A DNA stretch of 64,000 bases from Streptomyces liliifuscus (lineage in GTDB: Bacteria; Actinomycetota; Actinomycetes; Streptomycetales; Streptomycetaceae), in the NCBI RefSeq assembly GCF_016598615.1, contig NZ_CP066831.1, positions 8,556,001 through 8,620,000 on the forward strand, read 5' to 3'. The notes beneath the pieces are model-generated. The model did not search any database. It was not told where the DNA came from and worked only from the letters and a program-made list of their open reading frames with translations. Positions 3,602 through 34,171 of the stretch are shown here, piece after piece (position 1 is the stretch's first letter; the number at the start of each line of letters is the position of its first letter). The translations under genes and the position numbers were made by a program.

Positions 3602-5742
3602 TGTCCAGGGAACCGGACGGACTCGCCGAGCTGCTGCCCCAGTGGCACCGGCTGCGCGACGCCCAGGAGGGCGAACCGCTGCGCGCCCTGCTCGCCGTCA
3701 TGGCCGAGCAACTCGACCTCGTACGCGACGGAGTCGAGCAGGGCTACGAGGACCTGTTCGTCGAGACGGCGGCCCCCTGGGTGCTGCCGTACCTCGGCGA
3801 CCTCGTGGGCTACCGAACCCTGCCGGGCTACGAGCGCGTTCTCACCACCGGTCTGCGGGGCGGGAGTTCGGCCGCGCTCACCGAGGCCGTCGCACCGCGC
3901 CGCGATGTCGCCGCGACCGTCGCCAACCGCCGCCGCAAGGGCACCCTCCACCTCCTCGAAGAACTCTCCGAGCGGGTCGCGGACTGGCCCGCACGCGCCG
4001 TCGAACTCTCCCGACACGTCTCCCACCACCAGCCCGTGAAGCTGTACGGGACCGGCGGCGCCGAGCGAGGGACCCGCGGCCGTACGGTCGACCTCAGGGA
4101 CAACTCGGCACTCGACCTGGCGGGCGGCCCCTTCGGCGCGGTGGCCCGCTCGGTCGACGTACGCCGGGCCGACTCCCGTCACCGACAAGGGGGTTGGACC
4201 CCGGCGGGCGTCGGGCTCTTCGTATGGCGGCTGAAGGCGTACTCGCTGACGTCCTCACCGGCGTACTGCGTCGACCGGGCCCGCAACCTCTACACCTTCT
4301 CGATCCTGGGCAGCGACACCCCGCTGGTCACCAAGCCGGTCCCGGAGCCGTCGCCCACCCACATCGCGACCATCGACAACGTCCCGGCCCTCATCCGCCG
4401 CCGTCAGCTCCACGACCGCCTCGCCGACTACTACGGCCCCGGCAAGAGCTTCGTCATCCGGCGCGACGGCGAGGACCGGCCCGTACCGCCCTCCGACATC
4501 GTGGTCGCCGACCTGTCGGACTGGCGCTACCGGCCCAAGCGCGGCCAGGTCGCCGTCGACCCGGAGCTCGGCCGGATCGCCTTCGGCGCCCGCACCGCGC
4601 CCCGCAAGGGCGTCTGGGTCGACTACCACTACGCGTTCGGCGCCGACATGGGCGGCGGCGAGTACGTACGGGACCGCGAACCGCGTCCGGACGCCACCGT
4701 GTTCCGGGTCGGCCCCGGCGAGACGTACCGGCAGATCATGGACGCCTACCGGGCCTGGCAGAACGACCGCCGGGCGGGCCGCTGCGGTCCCGAGGGCGTC
4801 ATCGAGATCACCCACAGCGGTGCCTACCAGGAGCAGTTGGACTTCGACCTCGACCCGGGCGACCGCTTGGAACTGCGCGCGGCCGAGGGCACCCGGCCCG
4901 TGATCCGTCTCCTCGACTGGTACAGCAACCGCCCCGACGCCCTCAACATCCGTGCGGTGTCGGAGGATTGCGCCCCCGGCGAGCGCCCGCGGATCGTGCT
5001 CGACGGGCTGCTCGTGGCGGGCCGCGGCATCAACGTCACGGGTCCGATGGGCGCCGTCGTCGTACGCCACTCGACGCTGGTGCCCGGCTGGTCGCTGGAG
5101 CCGGAGTGCGACCCGCACTCGCCCGAGGAGCCGAGCATCGTCCTGGAGCGCACCACCGCGTGCCTCCAGGTCGAGCACAGCATCCTTGGCACGATCGAGG
5201 TCATCGGCGACGAGGTCTCCGAGGAACCCCTCGACATCCACCTCCGCGACAGCGTCCTCGACGCCACCGCCGACGACCGCGAGGCCCTCTCCGCCCCCGA
5301 CTGCCGGCACGCCCACGCCGTCCTGCACCTGCACCGCACGACCGTCATCGGCGAGATCCACACACACGCGGTCCGGATCGCCGAGAACTCCGTCTTCACC
5401 GGACGCCTCCACGTGGCCCGCCGAGGCATCGGCTGCATCCGCTTCTCGTACGTGCCCACCGGGTCCCGTACGCCACGCCGCTTCCGCTGCCAGCCGGACC
5501 TGGTCGGCCCCGAACAGGCCGACCGCGTAAGGCCGTTGTTCACCTCCCAGCGCTACGGGACGCCCTGGTACGCGCTGTTGGCCGACAGTTGCGCCGAGGA
5601 GATCAGGCGCGGCGCGGAGGACGGGGCCGAACTGGGCGCCTTCCACGACCTGTACCGGCCGCAGCGCGAGGACAGCCTGCGGGCACGGCTCGCGGAGTAC
5701 ACGCCCGCGGGGACGGACGCGGGGATCTTCTTCGTGACCTGA
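3601..5742 (+). CDS. Tail protein I-like baseplate protein with beta-helix-like C-terminal half
   Basis: 713 aa from ATG 3601, which has an AACGGAGG ribosome site 7 nt upstream; an in-frame GTG at 3598 would add one residue. Residues 1-110 resemble the phage P2 gpI / tail protein I family (PWVLPYLGDLVGYRTLPGY), which joins the baseplate J-like protein in contractile tails. Residues about 400-640 contain repeated short strands around VLDGLLVAGRGINVTG, VVVRHSTLVPGW and RIAENSVFTGRLHVAR, reminiscent of right-handed beta-helix folds used in fibre or spike proteins; that reading is an inference. The gene overlaps the preceding minicistron by 1 nt and lies directly after the J-like gene, which fits a baseplate operon. 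No signal peptide is visible, as expected for a cytoplasmically assembled particle. Confidence 0.72.
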   Translation: MSREPDGLAELLPQWHRLRDAQEGEPLRALLAVMAEQLDLVRDGVEQGYEDLFVETAAPWVLPYLGDLVGYRTLPGYERVLTTGLRGGSSAALTEAVAPRRDVAATVANRRRKGTLHLLEELSERVADWPARAVELSRHVSHHQPVKLYGTGGAERGTRGRTVDLRDNSALDLAGGPFGAVARSVDVRRADSRHRQGGWTPAGVGLFVWRLKAYSLTSSPAYCVDRARNLYTFSILGSDTPLVTKPVPEPSPTHIATIDNVPALIRRRQLHDRLADYYGPGKSFVIRRDGEDRPVPPSDIVVADLSDWRYRPKRGQVAVDPELGRIAFGARTAPRKGVWVDYHYAFGADMGGGEYVRDREPRPDATVFRVGPGETYRQIMDAYRAWQNDRRAGRCGPEGVIEITHSGAYQEQLDFDLDPGDRLELRAAEGTRPVIRLLDWYSNRPDALNIRAVSEDCAPGERPRIVLDGLLVAGRGINVTGPMGAVVVRHSTLVPGWSLEPECDPHSPEEPSIVLERTTACLQVEHSILGTIEVIGDEVSEEPLDIHLRDSVLDATADDREALSAPDCRHAHAVLHLHRTTVIGEIHTHAVRIAENSVFTGRLHVARRGIGCIRFSYVPTGSRTPRRFRCQPDLVGPEQADRVRPLFTSQRYGTPWYALLADSCAEEIRRGAEDGAELGAFHDLYRPQREDSLRARLAEYTPAGTDAGIFFVT

Positions 5743-5754
5743 CCTGACCTGACC
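5735..5754 (+). repeat. Pentanucleotide (TGACC)4 repeat across a stop codon
   Basis: Four perfect TGACC units. The stop codon of the tail-I-like gene (5740-5742) is in the second unit. Because a stop already lies at the start of the run, slippage would not change the protein. Confidence 0.8.
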
Positions 5755-5832
5755 TGGCCCCCTCCCGGCCCCACGCGCACCCGACGCGCCCCAGAACCCG
5801 CACGCAATTCCTGAACCAGGGGGATCCCCTTC

Positions 5833-7428
5833 ATGCACGCAGACCTCTCCCGCTCCACGTTCCGCCCGGAGCGGCACTACTCCGCGGTCATCGCCCAGCA
5901 GGGCCGCGTCCAGCTCGACGCCGACGCCAACGAGCAGACCGCGATCCAACTCCACCAGGCCCGCGCGCTCACCGCCGACCTGATCGGCCCGCACGGCGGC
6001 CCGCGCGACGCCGCCGGCTTCCGTATCGAGTACGTCGGCGGCAGGCACGACATCGACACCCTCCACATCCACGGCGGCCGCTACTACGTCGACGGCATCC
6101 TGTGCGACGCGAACCGCCCGGCCCCCGGCGTCCCCGTACCGGACGAGGACGACGACGAGCAGGAGAAGGAGAGGGCGCAGGACACCGCGCAACCACCCGC
6201 CCACTGGACCTACTGGGACCAGCCCGACGGTCACCGGGACCCCGAGAAGCCCGGCGACCGGCTGCCCTCGCCCGCCCAGGCCCCGTTCGTCGTCTACCTC
6301 CAGGTGTGGGAACGCTCGGTCACCGCGGCCGAGGACCCGGCGCTGCGCGAGGTCGCGCTCGGCGCGGCCATGCCGGACACCGCCGCCCGCGCCAAGGTCG
6401 TCTGGCAGGTCCTGCCGCTGGCCCTCGACGAGTTGGAGATCGAGGAGAGCGAGCCGTCCAGGGAGGTGGTCCGCGCGGCCTTCGCGCGCTGGGCGCAGAA
6501 GCAGGCCGCGCCCTCGGCCCGCCTCGCCGCCCGCGCCGAACGGCCCGACCACGCCGACGAGGACCCCTGCCTGGTCAAGCCGGACTCCCGCTACCGCGGC
6601 CCCGAGAACCAGCTGTACCGCGTGGAGGTCCACGAGGGCGGCACGGCGGGCGAGGGGACCAGGGGCAGCGAGCCGAAGGGCGCCACCTTCAAGTGGTCCC
6701 GCGAGAACGGCTCCGTGGTCTTCCCGGTCGACGAACTCGACGGCACCTGGGTCCAGTTGGCGTCCCTCGGTCATGACGACAAGCTCGACCTGGACGTCGG
6801 CGACCGGGTGGAGTTCACCGACACCGCGTACGCCTCCCGCCTCGAACCCCTCCCGCTGCTGAGGGTCGAGGAACTGGACCTGCCCGGCCGCCGCGTACGC
6901 CTGTCCGCCGAGCCGGAGCCGGGCGTCGGACGTCTGCCGCACCTGCACCCGTTCCTGCGCCGCTGGGACCACCACGAGGGCCCGAGGCGCAAGGGCCGCT
7001 CAACCGCCCTGCGGGGAGGGGCGGTTCCCGTCACCGAGGGGGAGTGGCTGCCCCTGGAGGACGGTGTCAAGGTCTACTTCGCCAAGGGCGGCACGTACCG
7101 CACCGGCGACCACTGGATCGTCCCCGCCCGGACGGCCACCGGCAGCGTCGAGTGGCCGGTCGACCCGGCGCGCCGCCCGCTGCTGCAGGGCCCGGCGGGC
7201 ATCGCCCGCCACTTCGCGCCGCTCGCCCTGGTGAAGGGCGAGGGGGAGGCCCTGGACCTGCGGCTCGCCTTCGGCCCGCTCGCCAGCAGCATCCCGGCGG
7301 CGGACGAGGCGACGCTCGCGGCGGAGACCCGGGCGCGACAGGAGGAACAGGCGGCCGAGGCCGACCCCTCCGGCGGGAGGTCGCAGACCACCGCCGAGGC
7401 GGAGGCAGCCGTGGAAGGAGACAAGTAA
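5833..7428 (+). CDS. DUF6519 domain protein of the injection-system cluster
   Basis: 531 aa. The N-terminus (STFRPERHYSAVIAQQGRVQ then LDADANEQ) is the hallmark of DUF6519 proteins, which recur in Streptomyces contractile-injection and tail-like clusters; their biochemical role is not established. Residues about 100-114 form an acidic stretch (PDEDDDEQEKE) and the last 40 residues are Glu/Ala-rich, both likely disordered. The central part has many short beta-type segments (YRVEVHEGG, ATFKWSRENGSVVF), suggesting a structural or fibre-associated protein. A G-rich run (AGGGGGA) lies about 10 nt upstream of the ATG. The stop TAA overlaps the ATG of the amidase gene by one base, implying coupled translation. 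No signal peptide. Confidence 0.7.
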   Translation: MHADLSRSTFRPERHYSAVIAQQGRVQLDADANEQTAIQLHQARALTADLIGPHGGPRDAAGFRIEYVGGRHDIDTLHIHGGRYYVDGILCDANRPAPGVPVPDEDDDEQEKERAQDTAQPPAHWTYWDQPDGHRDPEKPGDRLPSPAQAPFVVYLQVWERSVTAAEDPALREVALGAAMPDTAARAKVVWQVLPLALDELEIEESEPSREVVRAAFARWAQKQAAPSARLAARAERPDHADEDPCLVKPDSRYRGPENQLYRVEVHEGGTAGEGTRGSEPKGATFKWSRENGSVVFPVDELDGTWVQLASLGHDDKLDLDVGDRVEFTDTAYASRLEPLPLLRVEELDLPGRRVRLSAEPEPGVGRLPHLHPFLRRWDHHEGPRRKGRSTALRGGAVPVTEGEWLPLEDGVKVYFAKGGTYRTGDHWIVPARTATGSVEWPVDPARRPLLQGPAGIARHFAPLALVKGEGEALDLRLAFGPLASSIPAADEATLAAETRARQEEQAAEADPSGGRSQTTAEAEAAVEGDK

Positions 7429-8321
7429 TGGCGAAGCCCCTGACCGCGTCCAAGCTGGTGGAGATCCTGCGCGCTGAGGGCCTCACGGTCCACGAGGTGC
7501 GCAACTGGCGCCGCCACAACCGCAATTCGAAGGGGCCCTGGGGTCCGATGAACGGTGTGATGATCCACCACACCGTCACCTCCGGCACCGCCGCCTCCGT
7601 CGACATCTGCTACGACGGCTACTCGGGCCTGCCCGGACCCCTGTGCCACGGAGTCATCGACAAGAAGGGCCAGGTCCACCTCGTCGGCAACGGCCGCGCC
7701 AACCACGCGGGCCTCGGCGACGGCGACGTCCTGCGCGCGGTGGTCAACGAGACGAGACTGCCGTCCGACAACGAGGCCGACACCGACGGCAACCGCCACT
7801 TCTACGGCTTCGAGTGCATCAACCTCGGCAACGGCAGGGACCCCTGGCCCGAGGCCCAGAAGGAGGCCATCGAGAAGGTCTCCGCCGCGATCTGCCGCGC
7901 CCACGGCTGGACCGAGCGCTCCGTCATCGGCCACAAGGAGTGGCAGCCGGGCAAGACGGACCCGCGCGGCTTCACGATGGACGGCATGCGCAAGCGCATA
8001 GCCGAACGGCTGCGCGGCAAGGGCGACAGCGGCAAGCCCGCCCCCGACCCGAAGCCCGCGCCCAGGCCCTCGTACGAGCCCTTCCCGGGCGGCGGCTTCT
8101 TCCACATCGGCCAGAAGTCCGCCGTCATCACGGCCATGGGCCGCCGTCTCGTCGCCGAGGGCTGCGGTCGCTACGAGTCCGGCCCCAGCCCCGACTGGAC
8201 CGAGGCCGACCGCAAGTCCTACGCGGCCTGGCAACAGAAACAAGGCTTCAAGGGCAAGGACGCGGACGGCATCCCCGGCAAGGTCACCTGGGACGCCCTG
8301 AAGGTACCCGCGCCCCGTTAG
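7428..8321 (+). CDS. N-acetylmuramoyl-L-alanine amidase with C-terminal peptidoglycan-binding domain, no signal peptide
   Basis: 297 aa from ATG 7428, with GAAGGAG 7 nt upstream and a TAATG overlap with the previous gene; longer upstream frames lack support. Residues 30-195 match the amidase_2 / PGRP fold: MIHHTV with a Zn-ligand His, a central GNGRANHAG loop and the late GHKEWQPGKTDP segment holding the second His and catalytic Lys/Asp. This enzyme class cuts the amide bond between muramic acid and the stem peptide. A Pro/Lys linker (about 205-225) leads to a peptidoglycan-binding-like domain ending in FKGKDADGIPGKVTWDALK. There is no export signal, so the enzyme should stay in the cytoplasm unless released by lysis or loaded on the particle. 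It is the last + gene of the cluster. Confidence 0.82.
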   Translation: MAKPLTASKLVEILRAEGLTVHEVRNWRRHNRNSKGPWGPMNGVMIHHTVTSGTAASVDICYDGYSGLPGPLCHGVIDKKGQVHLVGNGRANHAGLGDGDVLRAVVNETRLPSDNEADTDGNRHFYGFECINLGNGRDPWPEAQKEAIEKVSAAICRAHGWTERSVIGHKEWQPGKTDPRGFTMDGMRKRIAERLRGKGDSGKPAPDPKPAPRPSYEPFPGGGFFHIGQKSAVITAMGRRLVAEGCGRYESGPSPDWTEADRKSYAAWQQKQGFKGKDADGIPGKVTWDALKVPAPR

Positions 8322-8331
8322 GGGCGCCCTC

Positions 8332-8353
8332 CAGGGGCGCGGGGAACTGCGCG
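8332..8353 (+). repeat. Dispersed Streptomyces intergenic repeat, single arm
   Basis: Contains GGGGCGCGGGGAACTGCG, the same core as both arms of the large inverted repeat at 43093-43172. Here only one arm is present, just after the amidase stop. Confidence 0.7.
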
Positions 8354-8372
8354 ATCAGCCACATCCGACCCG

Positions 8373-8430
8373 CGGCCGCCGTACGACCCCAGCGGAGTGC
8401 TCACGCTCCGCTGGGCGGATACGGCGGCCG
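8373..8430. terminator. Bidirectional stem-loop between convergent amidase and M1 peptidase genes
   Basis: An 11-bp outer stem (8373-8383 with 8420-8430) and a 10-bp inner stem (8388-8397 with 8406-8415) are separated by a symmetric 4x4 internal loop. The structure overlaps the last codons of the M1 gene. No U-tract, as is common in Streptomyces. Confidence 0.65.
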
Positions 8431-9855
8431 AGCCGGAATCACCGCGGACCGCGACGGCAACGCAGGCAACGCCGTCTCATGCAGCCACGACCGGAACAGG
8501 TCGTCCAACGGCTCGGTCGCGAACCGAGCCACATGCGTGGTGAAGGCGGCGGTGGTGACCGTGCCACCCCGGTGCACCGACGCCCACCCCCGCAGCATGC
8601 GGAAGAACGCGTCGTCGCCCAGCGCACACCGCACCGCGTGCAGCAGCAGCCCGCCGCGCTCGTAGAGCCGGTCGTCGAACATCAGCTTGCGGCCAGGGTC
8701 GGACAGCCTCAGGTCCTGCGGCAGCGCGGACAGCTTGCGGTGCGAGAGGCTCGCGAGCGCCTGGGCATTGCGCCCACCGGACCGCTCCGACCACAGCCAC
8801 TCCGCGTACTTCGCGAACCCCTCGTTCAGCCAGATGTGCCGCCAGTCGGCGATGCTCACACTGTTGCCGAACCACTGGTGGGCCAGCTCGTGCGCCACCA
8901 GCCGCTCCGAACTCCGCGCCCCGTCCACGTGGTTGGCGCCGAACAGGGAGAGCCCCTGCGCCTCCACCGGGACGTCCAGCTCCTCCTCGGTGACGACCAC
9001 CGCGTACTCGCCGAACGGGTACGGGCCGAAGAGCTCCTCGAACAGCTGCATCATCGAAGGCTGCCGCGCGAAGTCCCGGGAGAACTCGGTGAGCAGGTGC
9101 GCCGGAATGTGCCCGGCCTGCGGGACACCGCCGAGACCCGGATCGCCGAGCAGCACGGTCTGGTACTTCCCGACGGACAGCCCGACCAGATAGCTGGACG
9201 TGGGCGCCGACTGCTCGTACACCCAGGTCGTGGTGGACGCCTTGGTCGTACGGGTCAGCAGCCGGCCGCCCGCGACCACCGAGTACGCCGAGGGCGTGGT
9301 GATCGAGATCTGGTACGAGGCCTTGTCGGCCGGGCGGTCGTTGCAGGGGTACCAGGACGGCGCCCCGACCGGCTGGCTGGCCACCAGCGCCCCGTCCTCC
9401 AGCTCCTCCCAGCCGAGCCCGCCCCAGGGGCTGCGCACCGGCTTGGGGTTGCCCGACCAGTGGACCTCCACGGTGAACGCGGCGCCGGCCCGAATCGGCT
9501 TCGGCGGGCGGATCCGCAGCCTGCCGCCGCGGTGCGTGTAGTGCGTCGCCCGCCCGTCGACCCTGACCCGGCCGATCCTGAAGTCGGCCAGGTTCAGCTG
9601 GAATTCGGCGACCGGCGACCGCCCCGCTATGGCGTTCAGGCGTGCGGTGCCGGACAGCCGGTTGGGTCCCGGACGGTAGTCCAGGGCGAGTTCGTACCGA
9701 TGGACCCGGTAACGGGGATCACCGTTCGCCGGGAAGTACGGATCCGCTCCCACTGTCTGCTGAACCACTGAAGTGTCTGCTCCCTGCGCTGTGCTCGTAC
9801 GGCGTGCCGGTGTTCCCTCCCCGGGCGCCGTACGGGCCGCGCCTAGGGACGCCAT
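8401..9855 (-). CDS. M1 family zinc metallopeptidase (aminopeptidase)
   Basis: 484 aa from the ATG at 9855, which overlaps the stop of the upstream synthetase by 13 nt; an ATG eight codons earlier is also possible. Residues about 320-330 carry HELAHQWFG (HExxH zinc site) and about 20 residues later WLNEGFAKYAEW supplies the third ligand Glu, the classic M1 arrangement. The N-terminal 200 residues form the beta-sandwich seen in short M1 enzymes; the C-terminal helical domain of full-length aminopeptidase N is missing, as in other ~480-aa bacterial members. No convincing signal peptide is seen. The overlap with a Pls-like synthetase suggests co-expression. The poly-lysine-degrading enzyme of S. 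albulus is, as I recall, a Zn aminopeptidase, so a role in trimming the synthetase product or in self-protection is possible but inferred. Confidence 0.85.
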   Translation of the reverse strand: MASLGAARTAPGEGTPARRTSTAQGADTSVVQQTVGADPYFPANGDPRYRVHRYELALDYRPGPNRLSGTARLNAIAGRSPVAEFQLNLADFRIGRVRVDGRATHYTHRGGRLRIRPPKPIRAGAAFTVEVHWSGNPKPVRSPWGGLGWEELEDGALVASQPVGAPSWYPCNDRPADKASYQISITTPSAYSVVAGGRLLTRTTKASTTTWVYEQSAPTSSYLVGLSVGKYQTVLLGDPGLGGVPQAGHIPAHLLTEFSRDFARQPSMMQLFEELFGPYPFGEYAVVVTEEELDVPVEAQGLSLFGANHVDGARSSERLVAHELAHQWFGNSVSIADWRHIWLNEGFAKYAEWLWSERSGGRNAQALASLSHRKLSALPQDLRLSDPGRKLMFDDRLYERGGLLLHAVRCALGDDAFFRMLRGWASVHRGGTVTTAAFTTHVARFATEPLDDLFRSWLHETALPALPSRSAVIPARPPYPPSGA

Positions 9856-12800
9856 GCCTCGATCGGGTTGCCCAGCCAACGGGTGTCGTCGGGAACGGAT
9901 TCCGCCGCCATGACGAGGGACGCGGGTCCCAGTGTGCTGCGCGCCCCGACGGTGCTGCCGGGCAGAACGATTCCGCCCGGGCCCAGCGTGGCGCCCTCAC
10001 GGAGGACCACAGTATCCGTCCGCAAGATCCGGTCGTGGAAGAGGTGGGTCTGCAGCACACAGCCTCGGTTCACCGTCGCCGCGTCCTCGAGCGTCACCAG
10101 ATCCGTCTCGGGCAGCCAGTAGCTCTCCACCCAGACGCCCTTGCCGATACGGGCACCGAGGCCGCGGAGCCACAGGTTCATGACGGGAGTACCCGGCACG
10201 GACCCGGCCAACCACGGCACGGCGACGACCTCGACGAAGGTGTCGGCCAGCTCGTTGCGCCACACGAAACCGCTCCACAGCGGGTGCTCACCGGTGCGGT
10301 GGCGCCCCACGAGCACCCACTTGGCGATCACGGACAGCAGCCCGGCGGCGGCACCGGCGCCCAGCAGCACGATCCCGGCGAGTGCCCAGGCCCAGGCCCC
10401 GAGCGCGCTCAGCGCCGCCACCGTCAGCACGGCCAGCGCGGCCGAGCAGAAGACGGGCACGATCCGGCACAGCTCGACCAGACCGCGCGCCCACAGCAGC
10501 CGCGCGGGCGGGTCGTACGTACGGCTCTGGTCGCCGCCCTGCGTGGAGCGGGGCAGCTTGACCGGCGGCAGGCCCAGGTAGGAACTGCCCTTCTTGGCCT
10601 TCTTCGGCGTCGCGGACAGCACCCCGACCAGGCCGCCGTCCGGCACGGAACGGCCCGGCGCGGTCATCCCGGAGTTCCCGAGGAAGGCGCGGCGCCCGAT
10701 CTCCGCCCGCCCGATCCGCATCCAGCCGCCGCCGAGCTCGTACGGCGCGGTCAGTGTGTCGTCGGCCAGGAACGCGCCCTCGCCGACCGTCGTCAGACTC
10801 GGCAGTGCGAGCACCGTCGACACCTCGGCACCCCGCCCGATCCGCATGCCCAGCAGCCGCAGCCACACCGGCGTGGCCAGCCCGGCGTACAGCGGGAACA
10901 GCGTGTCGCGGGAGCGGTCCATCAGCTGCGTGACCGTCCACGCCTGCCAGCCGATCCTGCTGTGCGTCGGATGCGTACCGGGCCGCAGCCCGAGACTGAG
11001 CAGCCGTACGTTGACCAGCAGGATCAGCGCGTAGGTGAGACCGAAGGCCAGCGTCGCCGGCACCAGCGCGACCGCGGCACCCCGCAGCGCCTCGCCGAGA
11101 CCGGCGTCCGGCGAGACGAAGACGCTCGCCACGAGCAGCGCGGCCAGACCCGCGACCAGCGGCAACGCGGAGAGCGCGAAGCCGGTGGCGCCGTACATCA
11201 CGCGCCAGTACGTACCCCGCTGCGGGCGCTCCTTGGGCCAGTCCCGCTTGGCCTTGCCGAGCTTGGCCGCGGGAGCCCCGGCCCACCGCTGACCGGTCGT
11301 GATGTGTCCGGACACGGCCGAACCGGGGGCCACCTCGGACCGCTTGCCCACCCGGGCGCCCGGGAAGAGGATGCTGCGGGTGCCGACCACGGCGTGCGCG
11401 CCGACCTTGACCGGGCCGATCTCCAGGCGGTCGCCGTCCAGCCAGTGGCCCGACAGGTCCACCTCGGACTCCACGGCGGCACCCCGGCCGAGCTTGAGCA
11501 TGCCGGTGACCGGCGGCAGCGAGTGCAGATCCACGTCGGACCCGACCTTCGCGCCCAGCGCACGGGCGTACCGCTCCAGCCACGACCCCGTCAGCGAGGT
11601 CGCCCCGCTGAACTCGGCGAGCCGCTCGGCCGTCCACAGCCGCAGATGCACGCTTCCGCCCCGCGGATACCGCCCGGGCTTCAGACCGCGCAGCAGCAGC
11701 CGCGCACCGCCGGCCGCGATCGCGAGCCGCCCCGGCGGGCTGAAGAGCAGCCCGGCCCCCGCCGCGACGACCCACCACGAGGCGGTCGGCACCCACGGAT
11801 ACGGACCGAACCAGTGCAGTACGTTGCCCAGCGCGGCCAGCGCCACGGTCCAGCGCAGCCCGAGCAGGGTGAACAGCGGGACGAGCACCAGCAGTTGAAC
11901 GACCTTGGCGCGCAGGGGCACCGGCGGGATCTCGCGGGTGGCCCCGTCACCCTGAACGGACTTCTCCAGATGCCGGGCCAGCTTGCGCAGCACGGGCTGC
12001 TGGTAGATGTCGACGACGGCGGCGCTGGGGTAGCGGGTGCGCAGCCGGGTGGTGAGCTGGGCGGCGGCGAGACTGCTGCCGCCGATCGCGAAGAAGTCGT
12101 CCCGCGCCGAACCGACGGGGATGCCGAGCACCTCGCTCCACTGCTCGGCGAGCCATGCCTCGGTGCCGTACAGCTGCTCGGCGGGTCCGCCGGTCTCCAG
12201 GCCCTCCAGGGGCCACGGGAGGGCGTTCCGGTCGACCTTGCCCGAGGTGCGGGTCGGCAGGTCGGCGACCGGCGCGAGCAGCGGGACCAGGGCGGCGGGC
12301 AACTCGGCGCGCAGCTTCTCGACGGCCGTCGAGTGGTCCCAGCCCTCCTGGGTGACCACATAGCCGACGAGCAGCTGGTTGCCGCTGCGGGCGGTACGGA
12401 CCGCGGCCGCGGCACCCGCTACCCCGGGCAGCGCCTGGAGAGCGGCGTCGACCTCGCCGAGTTCGATGCGGCGCCCGCCGAGTTTGATCTGCTCGTCGGC
12501 CCGCCCGAGGAAGACCAGCCCCTCCGGCTCGGCCTTGACCAGGTCACCGCTGCGGTAGGCGCGCTCCCAGCCGAGCGACTCCAGCGGGGCGTACTTCTCG
12601 GCGTCCTTCTCGGGGTCGAGATAGCGGGCCAGGCCCACTCCGCCGATCACGAGCTGACCGCTGCCGCCCATGGGCACCGGCTCGCCGGACTCGTCGACGA
12701 CGGCCAGCTCCCAGCCGTTGAGCGGCAGCCCGATACGGATCGGCTCCTCGCCGGTCATCAGGGACGCGCAGGCGACGACGGTGGCCTCGGTCGGCCCGTA

Positions 12801-27432: not shown

Positions 27433-28662
27433 ATGCATGCCTGGCCCGCTTCCGACGTCCCTGCCCTGCCCGGCAAGGGCCGCGACCTCCGGATCCACGA
27501 CACCGCGACCGGTGGTCCTGTGACCCTCGACCCCGGTCCCGTCGCCCGTATCTACGTCTGCGGCATCACTCCGTACGACGCGACCCATCTGGGTCACGCG
27601 GCGACCTACAACGCGTTCGACCTCGTTCAGCGCGTGTGGCTCGACACCAAGCGGCAGGTTCACTACGTCCAGAACGTGACGGACGTCGACGATCCACTGC
27701 TGGAGCGCGCCGCACGTGACAACGTCGACTGGGTCTCCCTCGCCGAGAAGGAGACCACCCTCTTCCGCGAGGACATGACCGCCCTGCGGATGCTGCCCCC
27801 GAAGCACTACATCGGCGCCGTCGAGGCCATACCCGGGATCGTCCCGCTGGTCGAGCGGCTGCGGGACGCGGGTGCGGCGTACGAACTCGAAGGGGACGTC
27901 TACTTCTCCGTCGAGTCCGACCCGCACTTCGGCCGGGTGTCCAACCTGGACGCGGCGGCGATGCGGCTGCTGTCCGCCGAGCGCGGCGGCGACCCGGACC
28001 GTCCGGGCAAGAAGAACCCCCTCGACCCGATGCTGTGGACGGCCGCCCGCGAGGGCGAGCCGAGCTGGGACGGCGCCTCGCTCGGGCAGGGCAGGCCCGG
28101 CTGGCACATCGAGTGCGTCGCGATCGCCCTCGACCACCTGGGCATGGGCTTCGACGTACAGGGTGGCGGCTCCGACCTCGCCTTCCCGCACCACGAGATG
28201 GGCGCCTCCCACGCGCAGGCGCTGACCGGCGAGTTCCCGATGGCCAAGGCGTACGTGCACGCCGGCATGGTCGCGCTCGACGGCGAGAAGATGTCCAAGT
28301 CCAAGGGCAATCTCGTCTTCGTGTCGGCGCTCCGCCGGGACGGCGTCGACCCGGCGGCCATCCGGCTCGCCCTGCTCTCGCACCACTACCGGGCCGACTG
28401 GGAGTGGACCGACCAGGTGCTCCAGGACGCCCTCGCGCGCCTGGAGCGCTGGCGGGCCGCCGTTTCGCGACCCGACGGCCCGTCCGCCGAGGCACTCGTC
28501 GAGGAGATCCGCGAGGCCCTCGCGAACGACCTGGACGCGCCGGCCGCGCTCGCGGCCGTCGACCGCTGGGCCGTGCTCCAGGCCGAGAAGGGCGGCACGG
28601 ACGAGGGCGCCCCCGGCGTCGTCTCCCGTGCCGTGGACGCCCTGTTGGGCGTGGCCCTCTAG
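27433..28662 (+). CDS. mshC: Mycothiol ligase: cysteine--1-D-myo-inosityl 2-amino-2-deoxy-alpha-D-glucopyranoside ligase
   Basis: 409 aa. It is a cysteinyl-tRNA-synthetase-like enzyme with the HIGH-type motif ([11 protein letters not shown]), the zinc-binding Cys/His set ([25 protein letters not shown]) and the KMSKS loop (EKMSKSKGN). The short length and the absence of the tRNA anticodon-binding domain distinguish MshC from CysS. It activates cysteine with ATP and joins it to GlcN-Ins, the penultimate step of mycothiol synthesis in the cytoplasm. It follows DUF3090 and the SCO1664-family gene and has its own -10 box right before the ATG. Confidence 0.97.
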
Positions 28663-28759: not shown

Positions 28760-29419
28760 CTACTTGTTCACGATGACGGCCTGGAGCGTGTTGCTCGTGG
28801 AGTCGTAGATCCCGATGACCTGCTGGCCGAAGGCGAAGGCCTCCTGGACCTCGTCGTGCGTCACCTGGTTCGGGTTGACCAGCGGACGCCAGCCCTGGTT
28901 GATGTACAGGTAGAGGATCGACGGCTGGCCCGGCAGCGGTGTGACGACGTCCCAGAAATGCTCCGCCACACCGCTCGTCAGCGCCGCGGCCTCGACCGCG
29001 CTGCGCACGATCAACGGCTGGCCCTGGCCCTGTTCCTGCCCCTGCTGTTGCTGCTGCCCGCCGAGCTGGTGAAGCAGCTGCTGGAACGGCTGCTGCTGGC
29101 CGAGCTGCTGGAGCTGCTGCTGCAGGTGCTGCGGAATCTGGTGCTGACCGATGCCCTGCTGGCCGTAGCCCTGCTGACTGATGCCCTGCTGTCCGAAGGG
29201 CTGCTGCTGGCCCATGCCCTGTTGCCCGAACGGCTGCTGCATCTGCTGTCCGAACGGCTGCTGTTGCTGCTGCCCGAACGGCATCTGCTGGCCGTAGCCC
29301 TGCTGTTGGCCCTGCCCCTGCTGCGGGGGAGCCGTGCTCGGGCCCTGCTGCTGACCTTGCCGGCCCTGGTGCTGGCCTTGGTACTGGCCCTGCTGGCTCA
29401 TCTGCGGGGTGGTGCTCAT
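28760..29419 (-). CDS. Glutamine-rich prion-like protein with a C-terminal domain shared with the neighbouring protease
   Basis: 219 aa from ATG 29419 (GGAAGGTGG upstream). By my count 62 of residues 1-135 are Gln, in imperfect repeats such as QQPFGQQ, QQGYGQQ and GQQQPF; charged residues are nearly absent, as in prion-like low-complexity domains. Residues about 136-219 form a compact domain containing EHFWDVVTPLPGQPS, YINQGWRPLVNP and QEAFAFGQQ. The last 65 residues of the upstream protease align with this domain at the Trp-Asp, Gly-Trp-Arg, Asn-Pro and Ala-Phe positions. The gene lies 97 nt after the protease on the same strand, so co-transcription is likely. No signal peptide or membrane segment. 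No known family was recognised; function unknown. Confidence 0.75.
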   Translation of the reverse strand: MSTTPQMSQQGQYQGQHQGRQGQQQGPSTAPPQQGQGQQQGYGQQMPFGQQQQQPFGQQMQQPFGQQGMGQQQPFGQQGISQQGYGQQGIGQHQIPQHLQQQLQQLGQQQPFQQLLHQLGGQQQQQGQEQGQGQPLIVRSAVEAAALTSGVAEHFWDVVTPLPGQPSILYLYINQGWRPLVNPNQVTHDEVQEAFAFGQQVIGIYDSTSNTLQAVIVNK

Positions 29420-29516
29420 GCGGGTGCCACCTTCCCTCAATGGTTGAGCGACGGTTGGTCGTTGAGCGATGGTCGGTCTCGTGCGGGAGGCTGGTCCGGG
29501 GAAACGGCGGGTCGCG

Positions 29517-31265
29517 TCAGCCCGTGACGACCAGGCCGACGATCTCGTCGTCCGAGAACCAGACACGTACGTCGGGCCGTCCGCCCGCGAAGGCGGAGTG
29601 CACCGCCTGGCGGATCTCGGCGGACGGGTTGTTCAGGCTCCGCCAGCCGCCGGCCACGAACAGCCGGAGCCTGGGCGGGAGTTCACGGGGATACGGCAGC
29701 AGCTCGTCCCAGTACCGCTCGGCCTGGCCCGAGCCGACCGCCTCCGGCAGCAGATGGGCGACCGCCGCCTTGATGTCGGGCCGGTTGCCGATCCGCTGCG
29801 ACGCGGGCCGGCCCGGCGCGTCCTGCTGCGGGGAGCCCGTGGCCCGCAGCAGCCCGCGCGCCCGCTCCGGGTCCATCGGTTCCTGGCCGACCGCCCTGAG
29901 CATGCCCTGCAGCGCGGCCAGGGCGCCCACCACCACCGGAGAGGCGGAGGAGGTCCCGGAGAACGTGTCGGTGAACCAGGCGATCTCCTCGGCGCCGCCC
30001 TGCAGATCACCGGGCTTGTCCCAGAAGCCGCCGGTCGTGGTGACCTCGCGGCCCCAGCCCTGTGCGTCCACCCGCGCCCCGTAGTTGGAGAACGCGAGAC
30101 GCGAGCGGTCCGGGCCGTGGTCGCGGCCGTGGGTGCCGGGCGGCGGCGCGCCCGCGCCGACCACGATCGCGCCGGAGGACTGGTTGGACGGGTTGAACGG
30201 ATTGCGCCACCACTCGGGGAACTCGTCGGGCCGACGCTCGTACACCGCGTCGTCCAGGGACTCCCCGCCGTTGCCCGCGGCCTCCACCACCAGGACGCCC
30301 TTGGCGGTCGCGTACCGGATGGCCGCGAAGTCGTCCGGCCACCATTCCAGGGCGATGTAGCCGCGCTGGTCGTCGCGCACCGCGAAGTCCAACCGCGGTC
30401 CCGGGCTGTGCAGTTCGATCAGGATGATGTCCCCGGCGCCGAGCCGGTCGGCCGCCGCGTGGATCGCGGCCGCGGAGCCGATGCCGTGGAACGACGCGGC
30501 GGCGGTCACCGTGTCCGGCACGATGCCGGTGATCCCGTACTCGTTGCGGTCGCCGCCGATCACACCGATGACGGCGGTGCCGTGGTTGCGCCAGGCCAGG
30601 TCCTGGATCGGGGTGCCGACCACGACACCCGCGAGTTTCGCGGCCAGGTCCTCGTGGCCGAGCTGCCAGGCGCCCTCCACGTCGATCACGGTGACGCCCT
30701 GGCCGGAACCGCCGGGCCGCTGCCAGGCCCAGTACGCGTCCACGCCCTCGGGCGCCGGGCGCAGATAGCCCTGGCGGCTGGTGAAGTCGGGGGTGACGGG
30801 GGCGCCTTCCTTGCGCCGCCGGCTCTCGTCGGTGCTGTGTCCCACGGATCCCAGCGAGGCCGGTACGGCACCCGGCTTCACGTACGCCGTGGCGATCTCG
30901 GGCAGTGCCGCGATCCGCGAACGCAGCTCCTGGGCCCGGCTCTCGACGCCGCGCACCCGGTAGAAGAGCCCGAGATCGGGCAGTGTCTCGGCGCCCGGGG
31001 CCGAGGGCTGGGCCGCCGACTGCAGGCGTTCCTCGTTGCCGAACAGCGGTTGGAGGGCGAGCTGTTCGTCGCTGAGGAACATGTTCAGTGCCGACACGTC
31101 GGCGCCGGCCGCCGAACGTACCCCTTCGGCCTCGGCGCGCAGCCGGGCCTCGGGCCGTGCGACGACGATCAGTTCCTGCTCGGCTCCTCGGTAGGTGAAT
31201 CCGGCTCCGTCGGGCCCTGGCCCGGACGCTCCCGGGCCCTGCGCGGGCTGTGCCTGGTCGGTCAT
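29517..31265 (-). CDS. Leaderless S8 (subtilisin-like) serine peptidase with novel C-terminal domain
   Basis: 582 aa. The catalytic triad is in S8 order: Asp in GVTVIDVEGAW (~190), His in NHGTAVIGVIGG (~228) and Ser in FSGTSSASPVVVG (~436), with the oxyanion Asn in VEAAGNGGES. The N-terminal ~150 residues (ELIVVARPEARL; MFLSDEQLALQPLFGNEERL; RVRGVESRAQEL) may be a propeptide-like or sensor domain. The C-terminal ~65 residues (ERYWDELLPYPRELPP; VAGGWRSLNNPSAE) match the C-terminal domain of the adjacent glutamine-rich protein. No signal peptide is visible, unusual for a subtilase, so the enzyme may act inside the cell. Its substrate is unknown; the shared domain suggests the neighbour as partner or target. 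Confidence 0.85.
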   Translation of the reverse strand: MTDQAQPAQGPGASGPGPDGAGFTYRGAEQELIVVARPEARLRAEAEGVRSAAGADVSALNMFLSDEQLALQPLFGNEERLQSAAQPSAPGAETLPDLGLFYRVRGVESRAQELRSRIAALPEIATAYVKPGAVPASLGSVGHSTDESRRRKEGAPVTPDFTSRQGYLRPAPEGVDAYWAWQRPGGSGQGVTVIDVEGAWQLGHEDLAAKLAGVVVGTPIQDLAWRNHGTAVIGVIGGDRNEYGITGIVPDTVTAAASFHGIGSAAAIHAAADRLGAGDIILIELHSPGPRLDFAVRDDQRGYIALEWWPDDFAAIRYATAKGVLVVEAAGNGGESLDDAVYERRPDEFPEWWRNPFNPSNQSSGAIVVGAGAPPPGTHGRDHGPDRSRLAFSNYGARVDAQGWGREVTTTGGFWDKPGDLQGGAEEIAWFTDTFSGTSSASPVVVGALAALQGMLRAVGQEPMDPERARGLLRATGSPQQDAPGRPASQRIGNRPDIKAAVAHLLPEAVGSGQAERYWDELLPYPRELPPRLRLFVAGGWRSLNNPSAEIRQAVHSAFAGGRPDVRVWFSDDEIVGLVVTG

Positions 31266-31648: not shown

Positions 31649-32635
31649 GTGACACTCGCAGACCGTTCCTTCGCACGTCGAAGACTCCTCACCACGGCCG
31701 CCGCCCTGGGAGGAGCGGCACTCCTGGGCGGCACGGCGCACGCGGCCGAAACGCCGGGGCAGGGACCGCAGAAGGGATCGAAGGATCCGCAGAAGCACTG
31801 GCCGGACCGGTTCCCGCTGCCGAACGGCTTCCAGCCGGAGGGCATAGCCATCGGCTCCGCTCCGTTCGCGTACTTCGGGTCGCTGGCCAACGGCGACATC
31901 TACCGCGCGAGCCTCGCCACCGGGCGCGGCTCCGTCATCAGCAAGGGCCCCGGCGCCGGACACCCCAGCGTGGGACTGAAGATCGACCGGCACGGCCGCC
32001 TGTTCGTCAGCGGCGGCTCCGGCGGCGATCTGCGTACCGTCGACGTCCGTACGGGAAAGATCGAGAAGACGTACGCCGTCGGGGGCACGTTCGTGAACGA
32101 CGTGATCCTCACGCCGGGCGCCGCGTGGTTCACCGACTCCTTCGCGCCCCGGCTCTACCGGCTCGCGCTCGACCGGCATGGCAAGCCCGGCGCCGTCAGC
32201 ACCGTACCGCTAGGGGGTGACTGGCAGCAGGGTGCGGACTTCACCGCCAACGGGATCGAGCGCACACCGGACGGCAGCGCGCTGTTGGTGGTGAACGCCT
32301 TCGCCGACGGCGGCACACTGATGCGGGTCGACCCGCGCACCGGAGCCGCCACCGCGGTCGACCTCGGCGCAGCCAGGATCCCCAACGGCGATGGGCTGTT
32401 GCTCCTGGGGCGGACTCTCTACGTCGTCCAGCAACAGCAGAACGCGATCGATGTGTTCCGGCTGAACTCCGCCGGTACCAAGGGCACGGTGATCACCCGG
32501 ATCACCGACCCCCGCTTCCGGATCCCGACGACGGCCGCGGCGTGGGGCGACCGTCTCTATCTGCCGAACGCGCGCTTCGACGTCGAGCCGACGCCCGACA
32601 CGGAGTACGACGCGGTGGCCGTGCGCCAGGTCTGA
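31649..32635 (+). CDS. Tat-exported SMP-30/gluconolactonase-like beta-propeller protein
   Basis: 328 aa from GTG 31649 with GGAAGGA 7 nt upstream. A twin-arginine signal (SFARRRLLTTAAALGGAALL, cleavage near HAAE) directs folded export. The mature part has propeller-blade repeats: HPSVGLKIDRHGRLFVSGGS, TFVNDVILTPGAAWFTDSFA, NGIERTPDGSALLVVNAF and IPNGDGLLLLGRTLYVVQQ. The spacing and the Asn/Asp residues resemble SMP-30/gluconolactonase/LRE folds, which bind a divalent cation in the central pore, but the catalytic role is unproven. Monocistronic, divergent from the S8 peptidase, with a terminator 6 nt past the stop. Confidence 0.8.
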   Translation: MTLADRSFARRRLLTTAAALGGAALLGGTAHAAETPGQGPQKGSKDPQKHWPDRFPLPNGFQPEGIAIGSAPFAYFGSLANGDIYRASLATGRGSVISKGPGAGHPSVGLKIDRHGRLFVSGGSGGDLRTVDVRTGKIEKTYAVGGTFVNDVILTPGAAWFTDSFAPRLYRLALDRHGKPGAVSTVPLGGDWQQGADFTANGIERTPDGSALLVVNAFADGGTLMRVDPRTGAATAVDLGAARIPNGDGLLLLGRTLYVVQQQQNAIDVFRLNSAGTKGTVITRITDPRFRIPTTAAAWGDRLYLPNARFDVEPTPDTEYDAVAVRQV

Positions 32636-32707: not shown

Positions 32708-33898
32708 TCAGTCCTCCGAGGAATCCGACGAACCGGAGTCCGAGGAGCCGGAGGACTCGGAGGGTTCGGAGCCCGAGGATCCGGCGTCCGAAGAGTCCGA
32801 AGCCTCCGAGGGACCGGATGTCCCCGTCGTGCCGGACGAACCCGTTGCGCCCGCCGCCCCCGACGCGTCGCCGTCCGAGGAGTCGGAAGGGTCGGCGGTG
32901 TCGGAGGTGCCGTCATCGACGGCCCCGTCCGTGGCGTCCGTGCCCTCCGGCCGCTGCGGCTTCGGTGGCCGGACACGGCCGCCCGGGCCGTCCCTGAGAT
33001 ACGAGGCGGGATCGCCGCTCTCCGTGGCGTGGCCGCCGGGCGGCGAACCCGGACCGCCCCCGTCCCGTCTGCGCAGATACCGCTCGAACTCGCGGGCGAT
33101 CGCCTCGCCCGACGCCTCCGGCAGCTCGGCGGTGTCCCGGGCCTCCTCCAGCGTCTGTACGTACTCCGCGACCTCACTGTCCTCGGCGGCCAGCTGGTCC
33201 ACGCCCAGCTGCCAGGCCCGCGCGTCCTCGGGCAGTTCGCCCAGCGGGATCCGCATGTCGATGAGGTCCTCGAGGCGGTTGAGGAGGGCCAGCGTCGCCT
33301 TCGGGTTCGGCGGCTGGGACACGTAGTGCGGTACGGCCGCCCACAGTGACACGGCCGGTACGCCCGCGTGCGTGCACGCCTCCTGGAGGATGCCGACGAT
33401 GCCCGTGGGGCCCTCGTACTTGGTCTCCTCCAGGTCCATCGTGCGGGCCAGGTCCGCGTCGGACGTGACACCGCTGACCGGGACCGGACGGGTGTGCGGG
33501 GTGTCGCCCAGCAGGGCGCCCAGGATGACGACCAGCTCGACGCCCAGTTCATGGGCGAAGCCGAGCAGTTCGTTGCAGAACGAGCGCCAGCGCATCGACG
33601 GCTCGATTCCCCTCACCAGCACCAGGTCCCGCGGCTTGTCACCGCCGACCCGGACCACCGACAACCTTGTCGTCGGCCAGGTGATCTTGCGGACACCGCC
33701 GTCCAGCCACACGGTCGGGCGGTTCACCTGGAAGTCGTAGTAGTCCTCGGCGTCGAGCGCCGCGAACACCTCGCCCTTCCACTCCCTGTCCAGATGCGCG
33801 ACCGCGGTGGAGGCGGCGTCGCCGGCGTCGTTCCAGCCCTCGAACGCGGCCACCATGACCGGGTCGACCAGCTCGGGAACCCCCTCGAGCTCGATCAC
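32708..33898 (-). CDS. PAC2 family protein with long Ser/Asp-rich tail
   Basis: 396 aa from GTG 33898, with AAGGAGG 8 nt upstream; the frame runs open to 34150 but has no start signal there. Residues 1-300 are the PAC2 (proteasome-assembly-chaperone-like) domain: PVMVAAFEGWNDAGDAAS, VLVRGIEPSMRWRSF and HTRPVPVSGVTSD are typical of actinobacterial members. The last ~85 residues are low-complexity (Ser, Asp, Gly, Glu, Thr) and strongly acidic, likely disordered. Actinobacterial PAC2 proteins are conserved, but their function is unsettled; a proteasome link is suspected by homology only. In S. coelicolor, as I recall, the PAC2 gene is next to mshC. Confidence 0.87.
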   Translation of the reverse strand: MIELEGVPELVDPVMVAAFEGWNDAGDAASTAVAHLDREWKGEVFAALDAEDYYDFQVNRPTVWLDGGVRKITWPTTRLSVVRVGGDKPRDLVLVRGIEPSMRWRSFCNELLGFAHELGVELVVILGALLGDTPHTRPVPVSGVTSDADLARTMDLEETKYEGPTGIVGILQEACTHAGVPAVSLWAAVPHYVSQPPNPKATLALLNRLEDLIDMRIPLGELPEDARAWQLGVDQLAAEDSEVAEYVQTLEEARDTAELPEASGEAIAREFERYLRRRDGGGPGSPPGGHATESGDPASYLRDGPGGRVRPPKPQRPEGTDATDGAVDDGTSDTADPSDSSDGDASGAAGATGSSGTTGTSGPSEASDSSDAGSSGSEPSESSGSSDSGSSDSSED

Positions 33899-34171
33899 CC
33901 AGCGCCTCCTTCCGACGTGCCCTCGCGTACGCCCCAACCTTACGGCTTGCGTGGGGAGCGCCCGCAGCCCCCTTGCATGGGGGAGTGACCGCATCACTGC
34001 CCCGTTCGTCACTTCCGAACACCCCGCAGTCGTCCGAGCTGTCCCCGGCCAACTTCCACCGCGGGCCCGGACGTTGTTTCGAGGTGGCGCCATACGTCGG
34101 ACGATCGCCAGAGGTCGGATGTCCCAACCGTTCCTGGGCAGAGTGATCATCCGAACGCCGCGCCGGGCCGG

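Follow-up and report, generated by a model that had tools for sequence, protein, structure and literature searches.

Effector-associated domains (EADs) are small domains carried on adjacent genes, for which a coupling of enzymes through homotypic contact has been proposed (Kaur, Burroughs, Iyer and Aravind 2020, PMC7159879); the work on these was the sole description of such a pair found in a literature search of openly accessible papers. The Streptomyces locus described here resembles the EADs in that two adjacent genes, one of them for an enzyme, encode proteins that share a small non-enzymatic domain (PMC7159879), a second copy of the domain thus lying in the neighboring gene. It differs in that neither of its two copies is joined to any of the EAD core components (VMAP, iSTAND, Ubl or GAP1), one being carried by a protease and the other by a Gln-rich protein, and in that searches of Pfam, NCBIfam, PHROGs and PADLOC gave no model for the domain. 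Because core components, domain models and copy number all differ, we do not class the Streptomyces module as an EAD.

With regard to the enzyme, the closest described proteins are the S8 subtilases encoded by Haloferax mediterranei pHME505 and Nostoc commune plasmid 6, which have the same N-terminal domain and core. However, their tail is absent or unrelated, and only the Haloferax protease has a matching neighbor, with another domain. The mycosins (MycP) of type VII secretion are likewise actinobacterial subtilases and give a weak profile match, but their signal peptide and membrane anchor are not found in the Streptomyces protease. A mycosin identity (TIGR03921) was rejected, with a score of 35.6 compared with the equivalog cut-off of 278.75.

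A C-terminal domain common to a subtilase and its Gln-rich neighbor

We analyzed a window of 64,000 nucleotides from the chromosome of Streptomyces liliifuscus (C1:8556001-8620000), in which a protease gene is followed on the same strand by a gene for a Gln-rich protein, separated by the 97-nt gap that an earlier sequence-only reading of this DNA had given (Table 1). The protease matches PF00082 with 44.7 bits, well above the curated cut-off of 21.8, and its triad (D195/H228/S439) and oxyanion residue N332 are invariant in a 41-row alignment. We therefore assign it to the S8 subtilase family (PF00082) as a predicted peptidase. Its N-terminal domain, modelled as strands alternating with helices (pLDDT mostly 70-87), is probably prodomain-like; its conservation extends to relatives from Haloferax and Nostoc. 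Neither of the two proteins has a hydrophobic N-terminal stretch (maximum 19-residue Kyte-Doolittle values near the N-terminus of -1.6 and 0.1), in line with the earlier statement that both lack a signal peptide.

Table 1. Coordinates of the features discussed in the text; rows that name another genome or locus refer to that sequence, all others to the window.
Feature	Coordinates	Strand	Basis or remark
mshC, convergent neighbor marking the fixed site	27433..28662	+	neighborhood comparison
Gln-rich partner gene, 219 aa	28760..29419	-	homologous tail; partner in 77/80 loci
Shared C-terminal domain, Gln-rich copy	28763..28984	-	profile match; OB-type barrel predicted (AlphaFold2)
Gln-rich low-charge region	28985..29419	-	family median 43% Gln
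Conserved motif LQQLGQQQPFQQLLHQLG within Gln-rich region	29060..29113	-	also in distant second pair of G988
Intergenic gap, protease to Gln-rich gene, 97 nt	29420..29516		RBS-like AAGGTGG before second gene
Protease gene (S8 subtilase), 582 aa, lacking a signal peptide	29517..31265	-	PF00082 E 1.4e-11
Shared C-terminal domain, protease copy, residues ~509-582	29520..29741	-	profile match, homology to Gln-rich copy
Subtilase catalytic core, residues 158-505	29751..30794	-	PF00082 match and relatives
Protease N-terminal domain, residues ~29-130, alpha/beta	30876..31181	-	relatives match from residue 29
PAC2 gene, marker of the other side of the site	32708-34150		neighborhood comparison
Second protease/Gln-rich pair of G988 (L199, G988:C1:4568000-4580000)	5441-7944	minus	genome also with usual pair
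Frame of G863 joining protease start to tail domain (L197)	6197-6598		catalytic core seemingly deleted
S8 protease of Haloferax mediterranei pHME505 with other tail domain (L124)	4962-7009		adjacent free copy
Actinobacterial frame ending in Haloferax-type domain (L167, G298:C444:68000-82000)	7023-10001	minus	87-aa free copy directly behind

The last ~74 residues of the two proteins are homologous. Their local alignment scores 110 with BLOSUM62, compared with a mean of 25.3 (sd 4.8) and a maximum of 58 among 5000 shuffles, and hhalign aligned a profile built from protease tails only to one built from Gln-rich copies only with a probability of 98 and an E of 1.5e-13. A tblastn search of the whole genome with the Gln-rich domain returned the domain itself and the protease tail alone (E 8.6e-8, 35% identity); the domain profile matches the protease copy with E 3.8e-36 and the Gln-rich copy with E 2.4e-36. 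Based on these alignment, tblastn and profile matches, we conclude that the domain, whose presence on both proteins the sequence-only reading had claimed, is real, and that the genome contains exactly two detectable copies of it. The motifs named in that reading (E-x-F/Y-W-D, P-x-P, GWR-x-L-x-NP and AF-x-G) are present in both proteins, but they are only partly invariant across relatives: what is invariant are single G, A, D, P and R positions and AFA-x-G, and the W of GWR is absent from many Gln-rich copies. A search of PDB sequences with the domain gave no match. Judged by its sequence, the domain is a new, previously unclassified family.

Divergence is four times as fast among the Gln-rich copies as in the protease tail (mean distance 0.43 vs 0.11), and the distances in the two copies show a moderate correlation (r 0.41-0.49) that shared ancestry alone could yield. 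Because of this much faster divergence of the Gln-rich copies, any mutual interface must be tolerant.

The Gln-rich gene starts with the ATG at 29419 (context AAGGTGGCACCCGC-ATG); at other loci, it lies 29-161 nt from the protease gene. Gln-rich proteins comprise 159-262 aa in total and contain 33-51% Gln before the domain (median 43%), with Gly and Pro next in abundance and almost no charge. This arm holds two conserved pieces, namely the protein start (MSTTPQMSQ in the window, MSTTPQMS across the family) and the motif LQQLGQQQPFQQLLQQLG. As a Gln/Asn-rich low-complexity region with few charges, it has the features by which bacterial prion-like regions are recognized, and we use the label "prion-like" as a description of composition only.

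The fold of the domain was predicted with AlphaFold2. Given 54 Gln-rich copies as input, the Gln-rich copy was modelled as a five-stranded OB-type barrel with its helix between strands 3 and 4 (order E-E-E-H-E-E, pLDDT 87.5, pTM 0.75), as is characteristic of the OB-fold. Folds of the OB type often serve as modules for oligomerization or binding, and the predicted barrel accords with the earlier suggestion of an assembly module. The nearest solved structures were AB5 B subunits, SilF, a DUF2500 protein and PriB. The best match was AB5 B-subunit-like (Z 7.0, 2.4 A over 64 residues, 16% identity), with other OB proteins nearly equal, and the position of AB5 B subunits at the head of the list denotes an arrangement common to them and the model, that is, fold type and no more. 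The barrels of AB5 toxin B subunits, SilF and PriB resemble the model in strand order and size, and several known ones form rings or dimers; however, Z values of 7.0 or below and 3-16% identity provide no evidence of descent or common function. Since protease relatives are too alike, the full-length protease model was poor (pLDDT 46) and unfit for judging the core or the domain orientation. Thus, of the comparison of both folds that the sequence-only reading had called for, the Gln-rich half yielded a well-folded model, but the protease copy could be viewed only within the poor full-length model, where the last two strand pairs surround one helix in the same order as in the Gln-rich copy.

Gene pairing and proteases without a partner

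A scan of 84,980 genomes was performed with the domain profile. The best 80 loci, which were kept, are all from Streptomyces and all anchored on the protease, and in 77 of these best 80 the protease gene is directly followed, on the same strand, by a Gln-rich gene ending in the domain. A second sample of 329 evenly drawn Streptomyces genomes contained the domain in 56 cases, 51 of them with two or three matches representing both copies, and the adjacent pair occurs in about one in six Streptomyces species. Across the phylum (396 genomes), the domain was found in Streptomyces only. A Gln-rich protein without the protease was not seen in the genomes surveyed; neither did viral contigs searched with domain and core profiles, nor plasmids searched with the domain profile, give a match. 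The pairing upholds the co-conservation on which the sequence-only reading had staked its case, and its view of a protease dedicated to this pair is likewise supported.

In one genome (G988), a second pair lies elsewhere on the chromosome; here, a Gln-rich gene stands right behind the gene for a distant protease with the tail. The Gln-rich protein encoded there keeps the LGQQQPFQ motif and has a very divergent domain (E 1e-4). Because tail, neighbor and motif are all retained, the protease/Gln-rich pair must be older than the split of this second pair. Their conservation indicates that the arm motif and the domain of the Gln-rich protein both matter.

Seven genomes hold the protease or a remnant of it without the partner, and four of these proteases are damaged, although sequencing error may account for the damage in individual genomes. 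The catalytic Asp is replaced in G018 and the oxyanion Asn in L111; in G863, the whole core appears to be deleted between protease start and tail, and G947 carries a frameshift within the tail. In the remaining three (G011, L097 and G804), all four catalytic residues are intact, as they are in 78 of 78 paired proteases, not one of which has lost a catalytic residue. The difference in damage (4/7 vs 0/78) corresponds to a Fisher p of about 2e-5, a value that ignores shared ancestry and for which the paired tails were screened for frameshifts only via intact open frames. No partner elsewhere in the genome was found in the five protease-only genomes searched whole, G011 included. With a core divergence of 0.108, the G011 protease is ordinary compared with the paired mean of 0.091 +/- 0.032; that of L097 is divergent, as is, by eye, that of G804, and L111 and G018 are the most divergent among 82 proteases compared. 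In the tree, L097 and L111 group together inside a clade of paired loci, which implies that the partner was lost before or with the decay in these two.

Since the enzyme tends to decay without its partner, the protease and the Gln-rich protein probably act as one working unit, and we regard their functional coupling as well supported. The partner is not strictly needed, because three genomes keep a catalytically intact protease without it. Read from genome sequences, the partner-linked decay is our best evidence that the protease stays active because of its partner, and it would fit a partner that is substrate or scaffold. The link between partner loss and protease decay fits the earlier proposal of a substrate or scaffold with its dedicated protease. 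These seven genomes serve as natural knock-outs that point to functional dependence within what is a clean two-gene protease/partner module, with a new domain family, in a much-studied genus.

Relatives of the protease core and a docking model

Relatives with 56-57% identity to protease residues 29-506 are found on Nostoc commune plasmid 6 and Haloferax mediterranei pHME505, and further core relatives occur in Mycetohabitans, in Paenibacillus, in Bradyrhizobium and in several more genera of actinobacteria. The core is thus widespread, but the Streptomyces-type tail is absent from all these non-Streptomyces relatives, which have no tail, a DUF346 propeller (G294) or FN3-like or carbohydrate-binding-like pieces (the last two by eye). 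The Haloferax protease, with a core identity of 56%, ends in an unrelated domain of ~82 residues. The gene that follows after about 62 nt codes for an 84-aa free copy of that domain with 77-79% identity. Kinship between the Streptomyces and Haloferax tails was rejected, as profile comparison revealed none. Among 246 actinobacterial genomes, the Haloferax-type domain gave one strong case (L167), at the end of a large protein with a 904-residue open frame and, by eye, beta-propeller-type repeats. The Streptomyces and Haloferax-type cases imply that the plan of a tail domain with a free copy next door arose or persisted with two unrelated domains. The plan is not universal, as no matching neighbor was found for nine other tailed core relatives (Nostoc, Paraglaciecola, Paracoccus, Paraburkholderia, Bacillaceae, Serratia, G294, G732 and Paenibacillus phage). 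On a plasmid of Paenibacillus sp. 37 (L126, 4582-6080), the annotation places N-terminal domain and S8 core in two overlapping frames, either a natural split or a frameshift. On Serratia fonticola plasmid plas1 (L145, 3623-6487), a gene annotated as cytolethal distending toxin subunit B family protein adjoins that of a distant S8 relative whose tail is carbohydrate-binding-like.

As a working model, which we consider about as likely as not, we propose that the Gln-rich protein forms assemblies that act as scaffold or substrate of the protease, and that the protease is docked onto them by the shared domain. The pair would form a two-gene intracellular module of Streptomyces, with the OB-type tail domain as docking or assembly module. 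The Gln-rich protein would assemble via its domain and display a flexible Gln-rich arm with the conserved motif, and the protease would join the same assembly through its own copy by like-with-like contact. Because of these two steps, the Gln-rich protein would be a scaffold that concentrates the protease; it may be the main substrate as well, and the arm may be the substrate or the condensate-forming part. Docking, oligomer formation or aggregation, cleavage and biological purpose are the parts of this explanation that we infer. If docking is true, the module would represent a simple bacterial way of recruiting an enzyme to a Gln-rich assembly via a like-with-like domain, with a logic comparable to caspase recruitment and to that proposed for EADs, although enzyme (a subtilase) and fold differ. 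More tentatively, a general and hitherto undescribed plan may exist in archaea and bacteria, in which a large effector (subtilase or propeller) ends in a small assembly domain, free copies of which come from the gene behind it and build the scaffold that the effector plugs into; the domain would have been exchanged for an unrelated one at least once with the plan retained, and the Gln-rich arm in Streptomyces would make a protease-carrying condensate or fiber.

In the main rival reading, the two tails recognize not each other but a shared third ligand, such as a glycan, a nucleic acid or another protein, and constitute an ordinary targeting module duplicated onto a second protein. We consider this somewhat unlikely. 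It draws on the diverse tails of the protease core family, several of which are of binding type (the DUF346 propeller in G294 and, by eye, lectin/FN3-like or chitin-binding-like tails in Serratia and Paenibacillus phage), and on the OB-type barrels that bind ligands in many solved proteins, but by itself it leaves unexplained both the decay of the core upon partner loss and the free neighboring tail copies in unrelated cases.

The damage in four of seven partnerless proteases would also be expected if the Gln-rich protein were an inhibitor or restraining partner in a toxin-antitoxin-like manner, which could disappear only from genomes with an already disabled protease. This is unlikely, as G011 has an ordinary, catalytically intact protease with the partner nowhere in its genome, and L097 and G804 keep the four residues; moreover, the protease-first gene order and the lack of lone Gln-rich genes would be atypical. 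Slightly less probable again is that the protease tail acts as a built-in pseudosubstrate, the active site reading the partner domain and the enzyme's own copy occupying the site to regulate it. Such domain sharing between enzyme and substrate would yield pairing and catalytic decay without the substrate; however, a folded barrel is generally a poor subtilase substrate, the protease tail is the slowest-changing part and the partner changes fast, and no conserved cleavage-like site was identified. Finally, a chance or trivial duplication that left a neighboring tail copy without joint function, for which the short domain and the fast-evolving Gln-rich gene might speak, is highly improbable and was already disfavored by the pairing, the conserved arm motif and the second ancient pair elsewhere.

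A fixed chromosomal site

In 89 of 90 loci, the pair sits between a PAC2 gene and the convergent gene that we take to be mshC. In at least eight of 12 Streptomyces that lack the pair, a PAC2 gene and mshC are no more than about 1.3 kb apart. Given this constant position and the empty sites, the pair behaves like an ancient islet of the chromosome that has been acquired or lost at a single site, and we rejected an origin as a mobile element. An SMP-30/NHL-like gene, located at 31649-32635 in the window and divergent from the protease, is present in about half of the pair-bearing loci.
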